From Tubulanus polymorphus (taxonomy: Eukaryota; Nemertea; Palaeonemertea; Tubulaniformes; Tubulanidae), in assembly GCF_964204645.1 (NCBI RefSeq), contig NC_134032.1, positions 16,492,775 through 16,556,774 of the forward strand: a stretch of 64,000 bases of DNA, in the 5' to 3' direction. The notes beneath the pieces were generated by a model. That model saw only the letters and a list, made by a program, of their open reading frames with translations, searched no databases and was not told the DNA's origin. Positions 8,551 to 52,708 of the stretch are shown one piece after another. Every line of letters begins with the position of its first letter. The stretch's first letter is position 1. Position numbers and translations under genes: made by a program.

Positions 8551-8877
8551 GGGGCGGACCCAGATGGAGGGGTACGTGGCGCCCCCTATTTTCTGCGGAG
8601 CAAATAATTTTTTCTAGCCACTTCTTGCGTTACTGAGGACCGAATCGTCATCGCCGAATAAATTATTTTCTTTCTATTATATTGCAAAAGTGCGCTCAGA
8701 ATGGACCATTACGCGCTTGGTGGGGGAGGCCAGATCCCCTGATGGTTTAACTAGTATCGTAGAGCGACGGAGATCAATGTGGAAACCACCACTTCGTGGA
8801 CCGCGTGAAATATTATACAGTGACTTATTGATTTCATTTACGACCCCCTAAGTTTTTCCAAATGCTGGATCCGCCCC
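8551..8877. mobile_element. Possible MITE-like element with 13-bp inverted ends
   Basis: GGGGCGGACCCAG at 8551-8563 is matched by CTGGATCCGCCCC at 8865-8877, whose reverse complement differs at one position. TACA flanks both ends, a possible 4-bp target duplication. The interior of about 300 bp has no coding potential. The match is short, so this is a candidate only. Confidence 0.35.
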
Positions 8878-15011: not shown

Positions 15012-42636
<27,625 letters not shown>

Positions 42637-44831: not shown

Positions 44832-47800
44832 ATGTTAATGATGGATCTGCTTCAGATTGTTAGGATTATTCTGATAATCAGCTTTCTGCTAAAAACTGAT
44901 GCGCGTCTTCGAAAACCAGGTCTATTATTCAACTTATAATCATAATAATCATTCTCGATAATTTAGAAATTTATGCAGAATTTAGAATAGATCACTGTCT
45001 GATTGAGTTTTCAAAAACCATTTGATTTTAATTCAAATTCTTGACTAAAATAGAATTGATAGCGTTCACAACTTCGGAGTATTATTTTTGAAATGTTGGG
45101 GTATTTTAGGAAATATTGCTTTACGCAAACCGACCAGATGGAGACAGACAGGTTCTAATGATGAATCATTCCTCGCTGTTGATGGTGACAGAGATTCAAC
45201 TAAAGAACATTTAACGTGTGTATATCTGACTCCTGAAACCAGTGTCTATGGATGGGGTTTGTCTATACCTCTCTGGTGGTATGTCGATTTACTAGATGAA
45301 TATGATATTGATTCAGTCATATTTGCTCCATGTTTGCGCTACTGTAAGTACAGGAATTACCGATGTGCCGTAGAATTAGAGGGGGTGGGGGAAGGGACCA
45401 AGTCTCCCACTGTTCTCACACACATGAACATAATTTCTTACATACCCCGCTGTTAACTAACTTTAATCAATTCTAACCTTCATTTTATACAATGTATTTC
45501 CTTAGCTGCATTTAATTGGCTCTGTTATAATCGTCATTAACTCTGTTTAAGAAATGCATGCCTAGGCTAGGTCTCAGTAGATATTTTATGGACTTAAGGG
45601 GGAGGGGAGACACGCGTGGGGCACGTGCTTCTATTTTAGCTTATATAATTGTTAAAGAAAATTTTATTCATATGGAATTCGACTCCAGTATCTGCTTGAA
45701 ATACTCTCAGAGTTTACTGGGGGAATCACCATGAGCTGGAATAGAGGATCCCTCCCCTATCAGAATCCTGGGTTCATCTCTGGGTACCCGAATAAAACGG
45801 GCAATGAATTATAGAATGTGAAAGGAATAACGTGGTCAATAATGATAGTAATAGCATTCGATCTTTGTAATTCTCGCTGATCACTGCTGGCTCACTGCTG
45901 GCTCACTGCTGGCTCACTGCTGGCTCACTGCTGGCTCACTGCTGGCTCACTGCTGGCTCACTGCTGGCTCACTGCTGGCTCACTGCTGGCTCACTGCTGG
46001 CTCACTGCTGGCTCACTGCTGGCTCACTGGCTGCGAGTAAAATGAAACCTTTTCACCCATGATTCTTCAAGTCTTTGAAATCCAAGGATGTCAGGAGTTA
46101 AATCTAAATTACTCAATGGCATTCCTCACTATAATTTAGTTCCGTCCCCTCCTCACATAAAATTCGTTCATACAGCTTTAACCGGAAATGAATGATCTAT
46201 CTGTATCTACATCAGTCTAATGTCACGTGATTGCTGCTCTATTACAACAGGTCGAACTGTAAATGTAGATATATATCTAACGAATCGATTTATTGAAGAC
46301 GATGTTTACGGAACAAATAAAACGCGTATTGGCGGAATAACCGGTAAAGCGAAACATACCGTTTATACCTTCCGATGTCATAGTAACTGCAAAGCCCGAC
46401 AGGTGGCGGTTTTAGGGCGTTTGGGTGATATGAAACTGCAGTTCTGTGAAATAGAGGTTTATACTAAAGAACAAATAGGCGAGTATTATTGCATTAATCT
46501 AAATCGTGATCAACAAAACCTCGTAATATTTTCATTTGAATTTACTCGAACTCGCTTCCCCGTGGTATCTCGGAGGACTCCCCTATTACGGTCAAAATGG
46601 TCGGAGAAAACTCGTTGTAGCTGCCTTGCGGCTATATTTCGAAATTATTAATCTTTTCACACAGAAAACGTCGCCCTGGGTAAATCTTTCATACAAAGAA
46701 ACTACAAAAATAACGACCGCCTGGGATCGCGTTTACTCGATGGTAATGACTGCTTTTTCGAGAATAAACTCAGTTGTTTATCACTGGCTGGGAATATTAT
46801 AACCGGTGAATGGTTTACTGTCGATCTCGGAGACACATATGACGTCAGATCTATACAGATCGCCACTATGGAAGGTACGTGTACCCCTGTGACGTCACAC
46901 TCAGTGAATCGGTGTTTTAACGGGAAATATAAACACGTGCGATGTATTTGATATTTCAGACAAGCAGTTGGCGGCCAAACTTTATATTTTAGTATCGATG
47001 GATTTCGATGAGAAGAGGAGTATAAATGAAATGATGGAAAGATCAATGACGTGTGCAATCATTACGGATCTATTCGGCAAATATACAGCTATGAGTCACT
47101 TACCATGTCAAGCGCCATCTACCGGTAGATATGTGATCGTTTATCAACCCAACTCGTACGGTTTAACGCTTTGTGAAGTGGAGGTTTTCGCAACTATTCA
47201 TCGAGGTATCAGTCCAAACAAATCCATCTATTTTTCTTCAAATCTTTACATTTCTTCAAATCTATCATTTCTCTCAGATAATCTCGTTACTAAGCGACCG
47301 ACGCAACAATACGGCGAATCACATGATTCCTGGTTAGCTATTGATGGTAACATTGACACATTTATTGAAACACCTGGTACTCATACACAGGAATGGTGGA
47401 CAATCGACCTTCTCAATGTTTATCACATTGAAAATATATTTCTAACCAACAGAAATATTAAAGGTATGAAATATATCCAAATTTCGAACGAAAATATCAT
47501 TTATCGGGTATTAGCAGAACTAGCTGCGAGAAGTGAGAAAACCAACCATCATATTAGAAGTGTTAGATTAGCTGTAAGAGTGTATTCTATAACTGTTTCA
47601 GGAGGTACTTGCACTTCACTACTCGGTGTTAGGGATGGTAGGATTTTAGATAGTCAAATAACGGCACGTGATTATAAAGTTGGACACGAACCTAAAAATG
47701 CGCGAAATACAACTGGTTGGTGTCCTACTACAAGTGGATCGTGGTGGCAGGTTGAATTCCACAATATCACATTAGTATCAGGGTTTACATTAGGAGGTAT

Positions 47801-49359
47801 GTGTCTCGTCCAACCAGCTGTCATCTCGTGTGTGTCTCGTCCAACCAGCTGTCATATTGTGTGTGTCTCGTCCAACCAGCTGTCATATTGTCTGTGTCTC
47901 GTCCAACCAGCTGTCATATCGTGTCTCGTCCAACCAGCTGTCATATCGTGTGTGTCTCGTCCAACCAGCTGTCATATTGTGTGTGTCTCGTCCAACCAGC
48001 TGTCATATCGTGTCTCGTCCAACCAGCTGTCATATCGTGTCTCGTCCAACCAGCTGTCATATCGTGTGTGTCTCGTCCAACCAGCTGTCATCTCGTGTGT
48101 GTCTCGTCCAACCAGCTGTCATATTGTGTGTGTCTCGTCCAACCAGCTGTCATATCGTGTCTCGTCCAACCAGCTGTCATATCGTGTGTGTCTCGTCCAA
48201 CCAGCTGTCATCTCGTGTGTGTCTCATCCAATCAGCTGTCAAATCGTGTGTGTCTCATCCAATCAGCTGTCAAATCGTGTGTGTCTCGTCCAATCAGCTG
48301 TCATCTCGTGTGTGTCTCGTCCAACCAGCTGTCAAATCGTGTGTGTCTCGTCCAATCAGCTGTCGCCTCACGTGTGTCTCATCCAATCAGCTGTCGCCTC
48401 GTGTGTTTCCCATCCAATCAGCTGTCATCAAAGTTATAATTGGCGAGAATTTCATTTTGATTTTTAGTGACGGTCGAACAGGCATGGGTACCAGATCAAG
48501 TACAAGTGACCTACAGCGTGGACGGGGTTACCTTTAACCCAATTCATCGAGCTCCGTCAAAGGTAACCCTAATCCCTTATAGATTCAAAGATGCTTTGGG
48601 AAATATCTACATGTAGTATAAATGAATATGTTTGTCTTAATCGATTAGAATATATTCACGGCATTCTGGTGGGGACATCGAGTCAACTGGTTCGATCGGG
48701 AAATACTTCTCAGAATAATTCGACTTCACCCGATCTCAAAGTCTCACGCTTGTCTAACAGCCGAAATTCTAGGTTGTGACGTCACTAGTGAGTAAAGTTA
48801 TTTGGAAGTTGATACGTATTTAACTGGTGATGATCCAGTGTCCGCTGTGACAGGCTTTCATCACTCTGAACACGATATTTTACTCCGTTTTAGGCCATTA
48901 CCTGAATGACTTGACCGTGCTGGTCGAACAGGAAGCGTTTAACCCGGATCACGTGACTATCGAACCGGAGAGTACGTGTCGGAAACTGAGTGAGGCTTTA
49001 CCGGTCGGGGAGACTACAAAAATCAACTGTATCCCCAGTCATAGCGGTCGTGGTCGTCATGTGACTATAGTTAAACATAGCGCTATTAATTCACCGCTAT
49101 CGTTTAGCGAAATAGAAATACAAGGCGAACCAGTATCAGGTAAACCAGACAACCCTCAACTCTAATCTTAACCTTTCAACCCGGCACGTAACCAGTAAAT
49201 ACTGTATCATTGCAGCCAATATTGCGTCATATCGACCTATATTCACTGCCAGTAGTTCTAATCACAGCCGACTTGGTTTAGTCGATGAGAAATATGACTG
49301 GAATAATTGTGAAACGCTCGATGTGAACCGTGTGTGGTTATCAGTACAGATACAACAGC

Positions 49360-49398
<39 letters not shown>

Positions 49399-52300
49399 TT
49401 GCGGTTAAACATGTTATATTGAGGTTTCAACCGAACTGTTGTAGTAAGCGGCGACCGGTCAAATCAACACGTGACACTTAAATATCGATCGATAGAATTT
49501 AAATATTGTTGTATTTTGTAGATGATGTTCGCATTGCTGAAAGTGTTCAAGTTCGTATATCGGACAAATTACCTCCTTCTACAGACCTCTCTCAACCTCC
49601 TCCTACAGACCTCTCTCAACCTCCTCCTACTAACCTCTCTATCGACCTCGCTAAACACATCAGCTGCTCCTACGTACGACATTATTCCCTTGATGCACTG
49701 TTCATCTGTCCACCGGAAGCGGTCGGTGATTACGTCATCGTCCACACGCTGGGAACGCGTGTCGTTGTTTGTGAAGTTGAAATCTATCAGAATTTCTCAA
49801 CACGTAAGATTTAGATTTGAATTGAAATGGAAAATGAAATATTGACTCGTTAGAAATATCGAAACATGATGAAAAAATCTAAACACGGTGTTTTTAGATA
49901 ACCTGGCATTGTTGAGAAATTCCTATTCGAGTAATCGTGCTAATGACTGGACCGGAGCGCCTCAACTAGCCGTCGATGGTAGCAAGTCCAGTTGTTTTGA
50001 AGCCGGTCGTGAATCTAGAACCTGGTGGACTGTTGACCTAGATACTGTCAATTATATCAGAATAATTACAATCCTAAACAGAAACGATGTGAAATGTGAG
50101 TTGAATGATTAATTCAATATACTGTATCCAAACTCATATGAAAGACAGTATTTATAATTACAGCGGATTCTCTGAACAATTTGAAGATAACAGTCGGAAT
50201 GGAATTTGATCGTTTATCCGGAACGAGCACGCGTCAAACAACATGTACAAACTTCGCGGGGGAGTTTAAACCGGGAGAGATGATGCACTTCCGGTGTCCC
50301 AAAGGTGCCGTCGGCAGACACGTGACCATCGCCGTATTAGACATGTATCTGTCTTTTTGTGAAGTGGAGGTTTTTGGATTTCTGTTCGAAGGTAAATTTG
50401 TTCTGATCAGAATCTGTTAAAACGGTTGAAGTTTAATTGGTTATCATCGTGTGTCTATTGTAGAGAATATATCTGAGAATAAACCAGCTCGTCAGAGTGA
50501 TGCTGCTGAGTTGGCGTGGTTAGCGGTAGATGGAGTACTAGTCACAGATCAGCGAACCACCGCTTTATGCGCCCATATACATCAGTCGTCTACACGTGGG
50601 CAATGGTTGTCTATAGATCTGTTGTATATGTACAGATTGCGTAGTTCAGTTATAACTATCAGATCGGACTGCTGCGGTAACGGTTTAAGATTAAGTTTGG
50701 GTCGCTTGAAGCCTAGGCCTGTTTCATCATGAGCTGCGTTTGTTTTATTTGTAGGTTTTGAGATGAAAAATTTTAAGATGACGGTTTCATCGTCAACGGC
50801 ACCGGATCCACGTGACCGTCCGTTCTATGTGTGTTTTCACAAACAGAGCGCCTCCTATCTCGGGGAGATACACTATATTCAGTGCCAGGACACATCCACC
50901 AGGGGGCGCTACGTTACTATCAGTAAACAGATCGGGGATCCCTCACCCCTGACCATTTGTGAAGTAGAAATATTCGGCGATAGATTCATCGAATCAGGTA
51001 ATTTGAGGAATCCTAAAACTCTCGATCGATTTAAGACAATGTTCCAATTTTAAGTCGTTAAATGTTTGAATTTTCAGATGAAAATATCGCTTTGAACAAA
51101 TTAACAAAACAGAGCGACGGAGGAAGTTCCGGTGTTAAATCAGTTGATGGTTTAAATGACGGTAAAATACCTGATTCAACACACGTGATCGATACAGTCG
51201 GGGAAGGCGCCACCTGGTGGATGGTGGATTTACAAGATCGATACATAGTAAACTCTATTATAGTTACACAACCATTTGACGGTATGTCCATCACAAAACA
51301 CCTCGCACATTATTCTGAAATACCACACAATGAACTGACGAGATCAAATACTGTAACTGTCTTTCTGCAGGTCCAGGTTTACAAGGCGCCACGGTTTACG
51401 TAGCAGAGAATTTCAACCCTAATGACGTCAATAGTTCACCAGATACAGCAGCAATTCAGAGTGAAACAACTAGTGATATATCAACTACAACTAGTGATAT
51501 ATCAACTGCAACACGTGGTGATATATCAACCACACCTCGTGATATATCAACCACACCTCGTGATATATCAACCAGTACTGATGATGTAACTGTCAGTTCA
51601 CAGAAAGCGATGGATGAAATAACAACACAACCGACACAACTCACAGTTTGTCATCAGATCAGAAAACAGTTACTACCGGGACAAATAGCAGATATAACGT
51701 GTAACAGTGACGCGATAGGACGATATTTAATCATCGTTAAAGAGAATGATTCGTTAATTCTATCAGAAGTCGAGGTGTTCGGTACATTAATACCAGACTC
51801 GAGCAACACGAGCAGCACTAACCCGATAACATATCAAACAGATAGTACTCCAACTATAGGTCAGTATCAGCCGCTAACCCCCTCCCCCCCTCCCTCACTC
51901 GATCACTCTCTCGGGGTCAGTATCAGCCGCTAACCCCCTCCCCCTCACTCGATCACTCTCTCGGGGTCAGTATCAGCCCCTAACCCCCCCCCCCCTCACT
52001 CGATCACTCTCTCGGGGTCAGTATCAGCCCCTAACCCCCCCTTACTCGATCACTCTCTCGGGGTCAGTATTAGCCCCTAACCCCCCTCACTCGATCACTC
52101 TCTCGGGGTCAGTATCAGCCCCTAACCCCCCTCACTCGATCACTCTCTCGGGGTCAGTATCAGCCCCTAACCCCCCCTCACTCGATCACTCTCTCGGGGT
52201 CAGTATCAGCCCCTAACCCCCCTCACTCGATCACTCTCTCGGGGTCAGTATCAGCCCCTAACCCCCCTCACTCGATCACTCTCTCGGGGTCAGTATCAGC

Positions 52301-52708
52301 CCCTAACCCCCCTCACTCGATCACTCTCTCGGGGTCAGTATCAGCCCCTAACCCCCCTCACTCGATCACTCTCTCGGGGTCAGTATCAGCCCCTAACCCC
52401 CCTCACTCGATCACTCTCTCGGGGTCAGTATCAGCCCCTCCCCCCCCCCTCACTCGATCACTCTCTCGGTTATAAACTCTTACTCACTGTGATTAACGTT
52501 GATTATTTCAGGTATACCGGATATTGATTGGGTATTAATAGGTGTTAATATAGCGGCCGGCATCAGTTTAATTTGTCTGGTATCGATATTAATTGGTTTA
52601 CGAGGCGCTGGAAAATTACCGTTAGTTCGGGGTAGCGCTAAAATACCGCACCTAAAACCACCAGCCAGTCCAAAAATATCTCCGTCACCAGTACAACCAA
52701 ATACATAA
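44832..52708 (+). CDS. Type I membrane protein with seven FTP lectin-like domains and a nested F5/8C domain
   Basis: Exons: 44832-44919, 45110-45343, 46251-46478, 46665-46874, 46960-47205, 47278-47463, 47602-47796, 48468-48562, 48649-48787, 48894-49139, 49216-49443, 49522-49803, 49898-50095, 50164-50391, 50464-50676, 50755-50997, 51078-51281, 51371-51859, 52512-52708 (TAA). 4149 nt close to 1382 residues. Order: signal peptide (1-29); FTP1 (30-183); FTP2 (184-335); FTP3, split as 336-397 and 541-622 around an F5/8C domain (398-540); FTP4 (623-792); FTP5 (793-934); FTP6 (935-1086); FTP7 (1087-1317); one TM helix (about 1324-1347); 35-residue tail rich in Pro, Ser and Lys. Domain signatures are WW-x-VDL in first halves and CEVEVF/SEVEVF in second halves. 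Nearly all introns are phase 1, two exons per domain. FTP domains bind fucose, but most here lack the full HX26RXDX4R motif. A cell-surface recognition role is inferred. Intron 3 needs a GC donor. Confidence 0.88.
45877..46029 (+). repeat. 11-bp repeat in intron 2 of the lectin-like gene
   Basis: About fourteen copies of CTGGCTCACTG in a nearly perfect run, about 220 bp before exon 3. Confidence 0.95.
47803..48425 (+). repeat. 29-bp minisatellite at the exon 7 donor
   Basis: About 22 copies of units with core GTCTCGTCCAACCAGCTGTC, some shortened by 4-8 bp. The array starts within 7 bp of the exon 7 splice donor at 47797. Its forward frames are open and run on from exon 7, but exon 8 completes the discoidin domain in phase, so the array is intronic. 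Confidence 0.94.
51862..52470 (+). repeat. 45-bp minisatellite carrying donor-like sites
   Basis: About thirteen copies of units with core TCACTCGATCACTCTCTCGG plus GGTCAGTATCAGCC. The first unit begins at the exon 18 splice donor itself (AG|GTCAGT), so each unit repeats GGTCAGT. C-run length varies between units. Confidence 0.94.

Follow-up and report, generated by a model that had tools for sequence, protein, structure and literature searches.

The window analysed here is a 64,000-nucleotide stretch of the genome of the nemertean Tubulanus polymorphus (contig NC_134032.1, positions 16,492,775 to 16,556,774 of the forward strand), and the gene that concerns us, rebuilt from the DNA, occupies 44841-52708 on its plus strand. 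A single open frame of 1379 amino acids runs through its 19 exons; 17 of the 18 introns have GT-AG boundaries, the other being the GC-AG intron 3 (46479-46664), and 17 of 18 are in phase 1, the other being intron 8, in phase 0. The product begins with a hydrophobic, signal-like N-terminus in the hydropathy profile, predicted to be a signal peptide, and carries a predicted transmembrane segment in exon 19, with the hydropathy maximum near residue 1324; from its sequence it looks like a receptor or adhesion protein that crosses the membrane once. The gene encodes seven F-type-lectin-like (FTP) domains, each made by a pair of half-domain exons that are all phase 1-1 (2+3, 4+5, 6+10, 11+12, 13+14, 15+16 and 17+18). 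The third of them, FTP3, is interrupted, as its two halves are separated by a discoidin (F5/8C) domain encoded by exons 7-9. This nested domain is real and well supported.

A first-pass annotation of this DNA had assigned the two halves of an FTP domain to exons 6 and 10, and both assignments held. When joined, the two exons match Pfam PF22633 with 40.2 bits (cut-off 27.8); by itself, exon 6 reaches 33.7 bits, and exon 10 gives no match to that profile. As PF22633 is a NedA-like, general galactose-binding-like family with no F-type specificity, the F-type name for FTP3 rests on the matches of the joined exons in the PDB, namely striped bass FBP32 (3CQO, E 1e-9, residues 11-140 of 144) and the eel agglutinin AAA (1K12, 7.6e-5). 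Profiles built without FTP3 recognize exon 6 at 40.5 bits (5.9e-11) and exon 10 at 29.9 bits (1.7e-7), the best scores among 20 shuffled controls of each exon being 1.5 and 4.3 bits, respectively. The exon coordinates and the phase 1 at both ends of the intervening block, as previously annotated, were reproduced by the rebuilt model; the residue span 336-622 designates the same region, with the numbering shifted to 333-619.

Scanning both strands of the window with half-domain profiles, which include the gene's own exons, revealed seven first and seven second halves in strict alternation, the next-best matches being a second half with E 0.063 (8564-8614, minus strand) and a first half with E 0.68. 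No half-domain exon is hidden on either strand of 47464-48893, where the only matches have E values of 16 and 49 and lie inside exon 7. In particular, a further second-half exon that would complete exon 6 before 47602, which the annotation had named as an observation that would speak against it, was not found, the best candidate being the match with E 16.

The guest is a near full-length F5/8C domain, in agreement with the annotation, which had read a whole domain in exons 7-9. These exons match Pfam F5_F8_type_C (PF00754) with 5.4e-10 and 39.9 bits (cut-off 28.2), covering profile positions 2-126 of 127, and in the PDB they match 47 distinct sequences at E ≤1, with the factor VIII light chain at the top (7.8e-13). 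The first and last cysteines of the family, which form a disulfide in F5/8C domains, are kept (GGTC ... EILGC); the insert has four cysteines of its own, that is, an extra inner pair. Its alignment with factor VIII C2 has a gap of four residues near what we take to be the first lipid-binding spike of that domain. The insert has N-glycosylation sequons at residues 430 and 449, and the FTP3 halves are free of them. The block, which encodes residues 395-537, measures 429 nucleotides, a multiple of three, and is flanked by phase-1 introns (introns 6 and 9), so that it has the equal flanking phases and the 3n length of a class 1-1 module. The nesting might be an artefact, with exons taken from different transcripts or a false assembly join at intron 7, most of which is a 31-bp minisatellite (47800-48428) of the kind at which assemblies can fail; since intron 7 lies inside the F5/8C domain, however, a false join would have to link the left part of one nested domain to the right part of another, and with frames and phases consistent through 19 exons we regard this explanation as extremely improbable.

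A further line of evidence comes from the disulfide that ties the two halves of an F-type lectin domain together. In the eel agglutinin, C50 of the first half bonds to C146 of the second (PMC5712786). Both cysteines are absent from FTP3, where G and S stand in their places, and from FTP7, and both are present in the remaining five domains of the window; the pair corresponding to C108-C124 of the agglutinin is kept in FTP3. Across the domains of the window and of the same genome, 37 have both cysteines, three have neither (FTP3, FTP7 and one paralogue) and none is mixed, a concordance of 40 out of 40; two further domains, whose match is cut off before a letter can be read at C50, are not among the 40. 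The chance of such concordance is 1/C(40,3) = 1e-4 on the assumption of independent halves and unrelated domains, a figure that overstates the strength of the evidence, as many of the tallied domains are kin. The joint loss of the two cysteines is nevertheless what would be expected of two exons that make up a single domain, or did so for a long time.

A sister gene bears on the same question. On C7, at 905.5-909.5 kb of the minus strand, lies a gene with two complete FTPs preceded by one second half, and with a Ser/Thr-rich stretch within its last FTP followed by a transmembrane-like segment, as read by eye; additional FTP halves at 899.5-903 kb, past that segment, may belong to another gene. 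In those 10 kb no F5/8C domain was found at E <0.05, and two weak matches (0.18 and 0.34) overlap FTP first halves. Searched against the genome, exon 6 (1e-5, in a tie with a neighbouring copy) and exon 10 (0.048) both match the last FTP of this gene best. Half-by-half matching was rejected as proof of a common origin of the two exons: although both lead to one C7 domain, its second half is unspecific, being the top match for other second halves of the window gene as well, and thus points only weakly in that direction. These data are also relevant to a history of losses instead of insertion, in which an F5/8C domain once stood between two FTPs, and the second half of the one before it and the first half of the one after it disappeared, leaving exons 6 and 10 as orphans. 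Phase-1 introns make exon loss cheap, and the top matches of the two exons within the window differ, exon 6 pointing to exon 13 and exon 10 to exon 16. Such a history requires, however, two matching losses that left halves complementary at the family's usual intron and deprived both of the C50-C146 pair, and the single C7 domain that heads the matches of both halves argues, weakly, in the same sense; we therefore consider it very unlikely.

The position of the insert within the host coincides with the ligand-binding region of the fold. In the eel agglutinin, a loop with the adjacent Cys82-Cys83 contacts fucose (PMC5712786), and the junction of exons 6 and 10 aligns between Arg79 and Arg86 of that protein. 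Of the fucose motif His52/Arg79/Asp81/Arg86, FTP3 keeps His and Arg79, and lacks Asp81 and Arg86, with the insert in between. The genome offers many domains for comparison, as its 268 Mb contain at least 123 exon matches to PF22633 at E ≤1 (six belong to this gene, and part of the total is F5/8C and not FTP) and at least 75 at E ≤0.001; these matches are numerous on C12 (0.27-0.32 and 1.08-1.46 Mb), C4 (23.77-23.80 Mb) and C10 (12.53-12.55 Mb). From 69 loci fetched, eight belonging to this gene were excluded and 61 were scanned, yielding 35 distinct pairs of first and second halves; pairs with identical exon ends were dropped and some near copies remain. In 30 of these 35 domains the first half ends at a phase-1 intron, as read from the best in-frame splice chosen by script, the acceptor of which may be wrong in a few cases. 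In 19 of the 30 it lies directly after DCC, inside the fucose motif (NRGDCC before the intron, xERL after it). The other five comprise one domain read as phase 0, probably through a wrong split, and four without a pair. None of the 35 has an F5/8C match at E <1 in the gap between its halves (114 to 1268 bp). The family in this genome thus normally has a phase-1 intron in its sugar loop, and the F5/8C domain is the exception.

Regarding the origin of the insert, class 1-1 symmetry is a hallmark of shuffled animal modules (PMC8001218), and multi-exon inserts are attributed to intronic recombination and not to retroposition (PMC2926785), so that a multi-exon module complete with its introns favours recombination of genomic DNA. 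Six loci with free F5/8C domains (L012-L016 and L018), the structures of which were read by eye, have the same appearance, with a phase-1 start in all six and a phase-1 end in the four where the end is visible (L013, L014, L015 and L018). In L014, L015 and L018, IFPGN or LFPGN is immediately preceded by a phase-0 intron, which falls within one codon of intron 8 of the insert; L013 was not readable at this place. The first inner cysteine of the insert recurs as GAWC or SAWC in L012, L014, L015, L016 and L018, and the second, before the final cysteine, in L014, L015 and L018, which are those of the five with a visible last exon; L013 lacks both. No close copy of exons 7-9 was found elsewhere in the genome, the best outside match (E 0.0038, 49% identity) covering query residues 3-55. 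Flanking repeats were rejected as traces of the insertion: a direct repeat shared by introns 6 and 9 is at most 6 bp long, and longer ones arose in 128 of 200 shuffles; the longest inverted match between the two introns, a figure without a control, is 8 bp. The sequence features fit an origin in which a class 1-1 module entered the pre-existing sugar-loop intron by intronic recombination. The annotation had likewise proposed exon shuffling into a phase-1 intron, a proposal strengthened by the 30 of 35 phase-1 FTPs, by the class 1-1 look of free F5/8C domains and by the joint loss of the disulfide.

The best explanation, to which we assign a probability of roughly 70%, is that the gene encodes a membrane protein with seven FTPs, in the third of which an F5/8C domain was inserted into the sugar loop by intronic recombination. 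The F5/8C module would have been copied, together with its introns, into the phase-1 intron of FTP3, whose halves would still fold jointly as a single scaffold. The ends of F5/8C domains lie close together, held by the terminal disulfide, and such a domain is therefore easily plugged into a loop; with a dispensable pocket, the loop of FTP3 could accept it. The guest might then project from the former sugar pocket of FTP3, or cap it, and the unit would bind through the F5/8C domain instead of by fucose. Since none of the seven FTPs has the full His-Arg-Arg/Lys triad, compared with 18 of 33 scored paralogous domains (a gap counting as a miss), simple fucose binding by this gene's FTPs is unlikely; FTP6 retains most of the motif (His, Arg79, Asp81 and both adjacent Cys), with Glu at Arg86. 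Given the four residues missing from the insert around the first spike, a protein or a glycan appears likelier as its ligand than membrane lipid.

Several observations weigh against this explanation. No candidate donor F5/8C gene stands out in the genome search. The phase-1 intron that comes first inside the insert stands about five codons from its counterpart in the closest free F5/8C genes, L012 among them, and L013 and L018 differ there. Exon 10 finds nothing better elsewhere in the genome than a weak match (E 0.048), and the C7 second half concerned is also the top match for the second halves of FTP4-FTP7. Finally, a matrix made from the gene's own 18 introns gives its two lowest acceptor scores to introns 8 (-1.8 bits) and 9 (-0.6 bits), and one of its lowest donor scores to intron 9 (2.8 bits). 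Under the insertion model the block of exons 7-9 would belong to the main transcript; the weak acceptors would also suit a regulated cassette, a reading that the annotation had raised, whose skipping would leave FTP3 uninterrupted, its loop open, and whose inclusion would cap it, so that one gene would make two binding surfaces. The 429-nucleotide block has phase 1 at both ends and its removal joins exons 6 and 10 in frame to a full FTP matching FBP32, and in oyster bindin the number of FTP repeats is varied by alternative splicing (PMC5712786). Nonetheless, as all the FTP half-exons are likewise phase 1-1, symmetry alone predicts no cassette, and the splice scores rest on a matrix of just 18 introns, so that a regulated cassette seems to us possible but unlikely. 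It is with similar reserve that we entertain a broader, speculative idea, in which the phase-1 intron of the fucose loop would act as a grafting slot, where the loop may be replaced by a foreign binding domain, and splicing could switch between an open and an F5/8C-capped pocket.

The exons are listed in Table 1. FTP4 is the weakest of the seven domains: with leave-one-out profiles exon 11 scores 3.5 bits, its shuffles reaching up to 3.6, and exon 12 scores 14.0 bits, so that the FTP4 call rests largely on position and on the Cys pair. Tandem repeats occur within the coding sequence of three FTP exons (11, 12 and 18), namely CAG-coded serines at 49356-49396, a 24-bp unit at 49571-49640 and a 21-bp Ser/Thr unit at 51466-51574, and their length might vary between individuals. 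Minisatellites are also found in the gene's three longest introns (2, 7 and 18), at 45881-46029, 47800-48428 and 51888-52469, with units of 11, 31 and 45 bp, respectively. Introns 5 (72 bp) and 6 (138 bp) are multiples of three and open in the coding frame (open reading frame 46908-48467), so that their retention would cause no frameshift. A coding role for them was rejected: intron 6 fits neither half-domain profile, and we thus read the open frame across both as due to chance. The annotation had spoken of other molluscs; a search for the molluscan hemocyanin beta-sandwich family gave no match, a negative that is no proof of absence. Upstream of the gene, 40033-40413 encodes part of an ionotropic glutamate receptor (Lig_chan, 1.2e-14, with one frame tested), and further exons of it were recognized by eye up to about 41957.

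Table 1. Exons of the Tubulanus polymorphus gene with the interrupted FTP3 domain (window coordinates).
Exon	Encoded feature	Position	Strand	Basis and remarks
1	Predicted signal peptide	44841..44919	+	Gene model, hydropathy; second in-frame ATG immediately 5' at 44838
2	FTP1 first half	45110..45343	+	Gene model, half-domain profile scan
3	FTP1 second half, followed by the GC-AG intron	46251..46478	+	Gene model, half-domain profile scan
4	FTP2 first half	46665..46874	+	Gene model, half-domain profile scan
5	FTP2 second half	46960..47205	+	Gene model, half-domain profile scan
6	FTP3 first half (N part of host), ending ...LTNRNIK in the fucose-loop equivalent	47278..47463	+	Gene model, Pfam, PDB, profiles
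7	Nested F5/8C part 1	47602..47796	+	Gene model, Pfam, PDB
8	Nested F5/8C part 2	48468..48562	+	Gene model, Pfam, PDB
9	Nested F5/8C part 3, ending ...EILGCDVT	48649..48787	+	Gene model, Pfam, PDB
10	FTP3 second half (C part of host)	48894..49139	+	Gene model, PDB, profiles
11	FTP4 first half with CAG-repeat-coded serine run	49216..49443	+	Gene model, profile scan; leave-one-out failed (3.5 bits)
12	FTP4 second half with Pro/Ser/Thr repeat	49522..49803	+	Gene model, profile scan, leave-one-out
13	FTP5 first half	49898..50095	+	Gene model, half-domain profile scan
14	FTP5 second half	50164..50391	+	Gene model, half-domain profile scan
15	FTP6 first half	50464..50676	+	Gene model, half-domain profile scan
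16	FTP6 second half	50755..50997	+	Gene model, half-domain profile scan
17	FTP7 first half	51078..51281	+	Gene model, half-domain profile scan
18	FTP7 second half, Ser/Thr-rich repeat in loop	51371..51859	+	Gene model, half-domain profile scan
19	Predicted transmembrane helix, short tail, stop	52512..52708	+	Gene model, hydropathy

Among the records listed by a literature search, the coverage of which left out most subscription papers, none concerned by its title an F5/8C domain nested in an F-type lectin domain, and we do not claim its absence from print. Nesting as such is common, since domain insertion is reported for 20% of multidomain proteins (PMC13114784), and the surprise is limited to that extent; that work likewise deals with one domain interrupting another, and the available main text makes no mention of lectin, discoidin or galactose. 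F-type lectin and F5/8C domains share a fold, and a protein of Microbulbifer degradans has the two together, as here, but adjoining and not nested (PMC5712786). The F-type lectins MsaFBP32, with two domains, and eel AAA, with one (PMC5712786; 3CQO and 1K12), belong to the same family by sequence; FTP3 shares the Cys pair equivalent to C108-C124 of AAA, and the tandem array of FBP32 resembles that of this gene. The fucose triad, however, is kept in those lectins and not here, and no nested domain is described for them in the available text (PMC5712786). The sperm bindin of the oyster Crassostrea gigas also has tandem FTPs, each with an intron in mid-domain that recombines, and again the text available describes no nested F5/8C domain (PMC5712786), while the window gene has a predicted transmembrane helix. 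Oyster bindin is acrosomal and carries one to five FTP repeats, and the present gene, with seven FTPs, an F5/8C domain and a transmembrane segment, falls outside that definition.

Like the F5/8C domains of coagulation factors and neuropilins, with factor VIII as the best PDB match, the insert has the first and last Cys, and it is a near full-length domain; it differs in being encoded within another domain, in lacking four residues by comparison with factor VIII C2 around the first spike and in having an extra Cys pair. Parallels in mechanism are class 1-1 shuffling (PMC8001218) and the gain of domains by insertion into introns (PMC2926785), in which an intron already present likewise receives a module of several exons with phase 1 at both ends; insertion into introns accounts for less than 10% of domain gains in animal genes in one survey (PMC2926785). 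Exon shuffling is generally recognized at the borders of domains, and if our interpretation is true, this gene would offer a clean case of the origin of a discontinuous domain in an animal, with the large FTP family of the same genome as uninterrupted comparators. In the available text of those studies, modules are added to proteins generally, whereas the recipient intron here interrupts the ligand loop of a domain; most likely, the nested domain owes its origin to a known mechanism acting at an unusual site.

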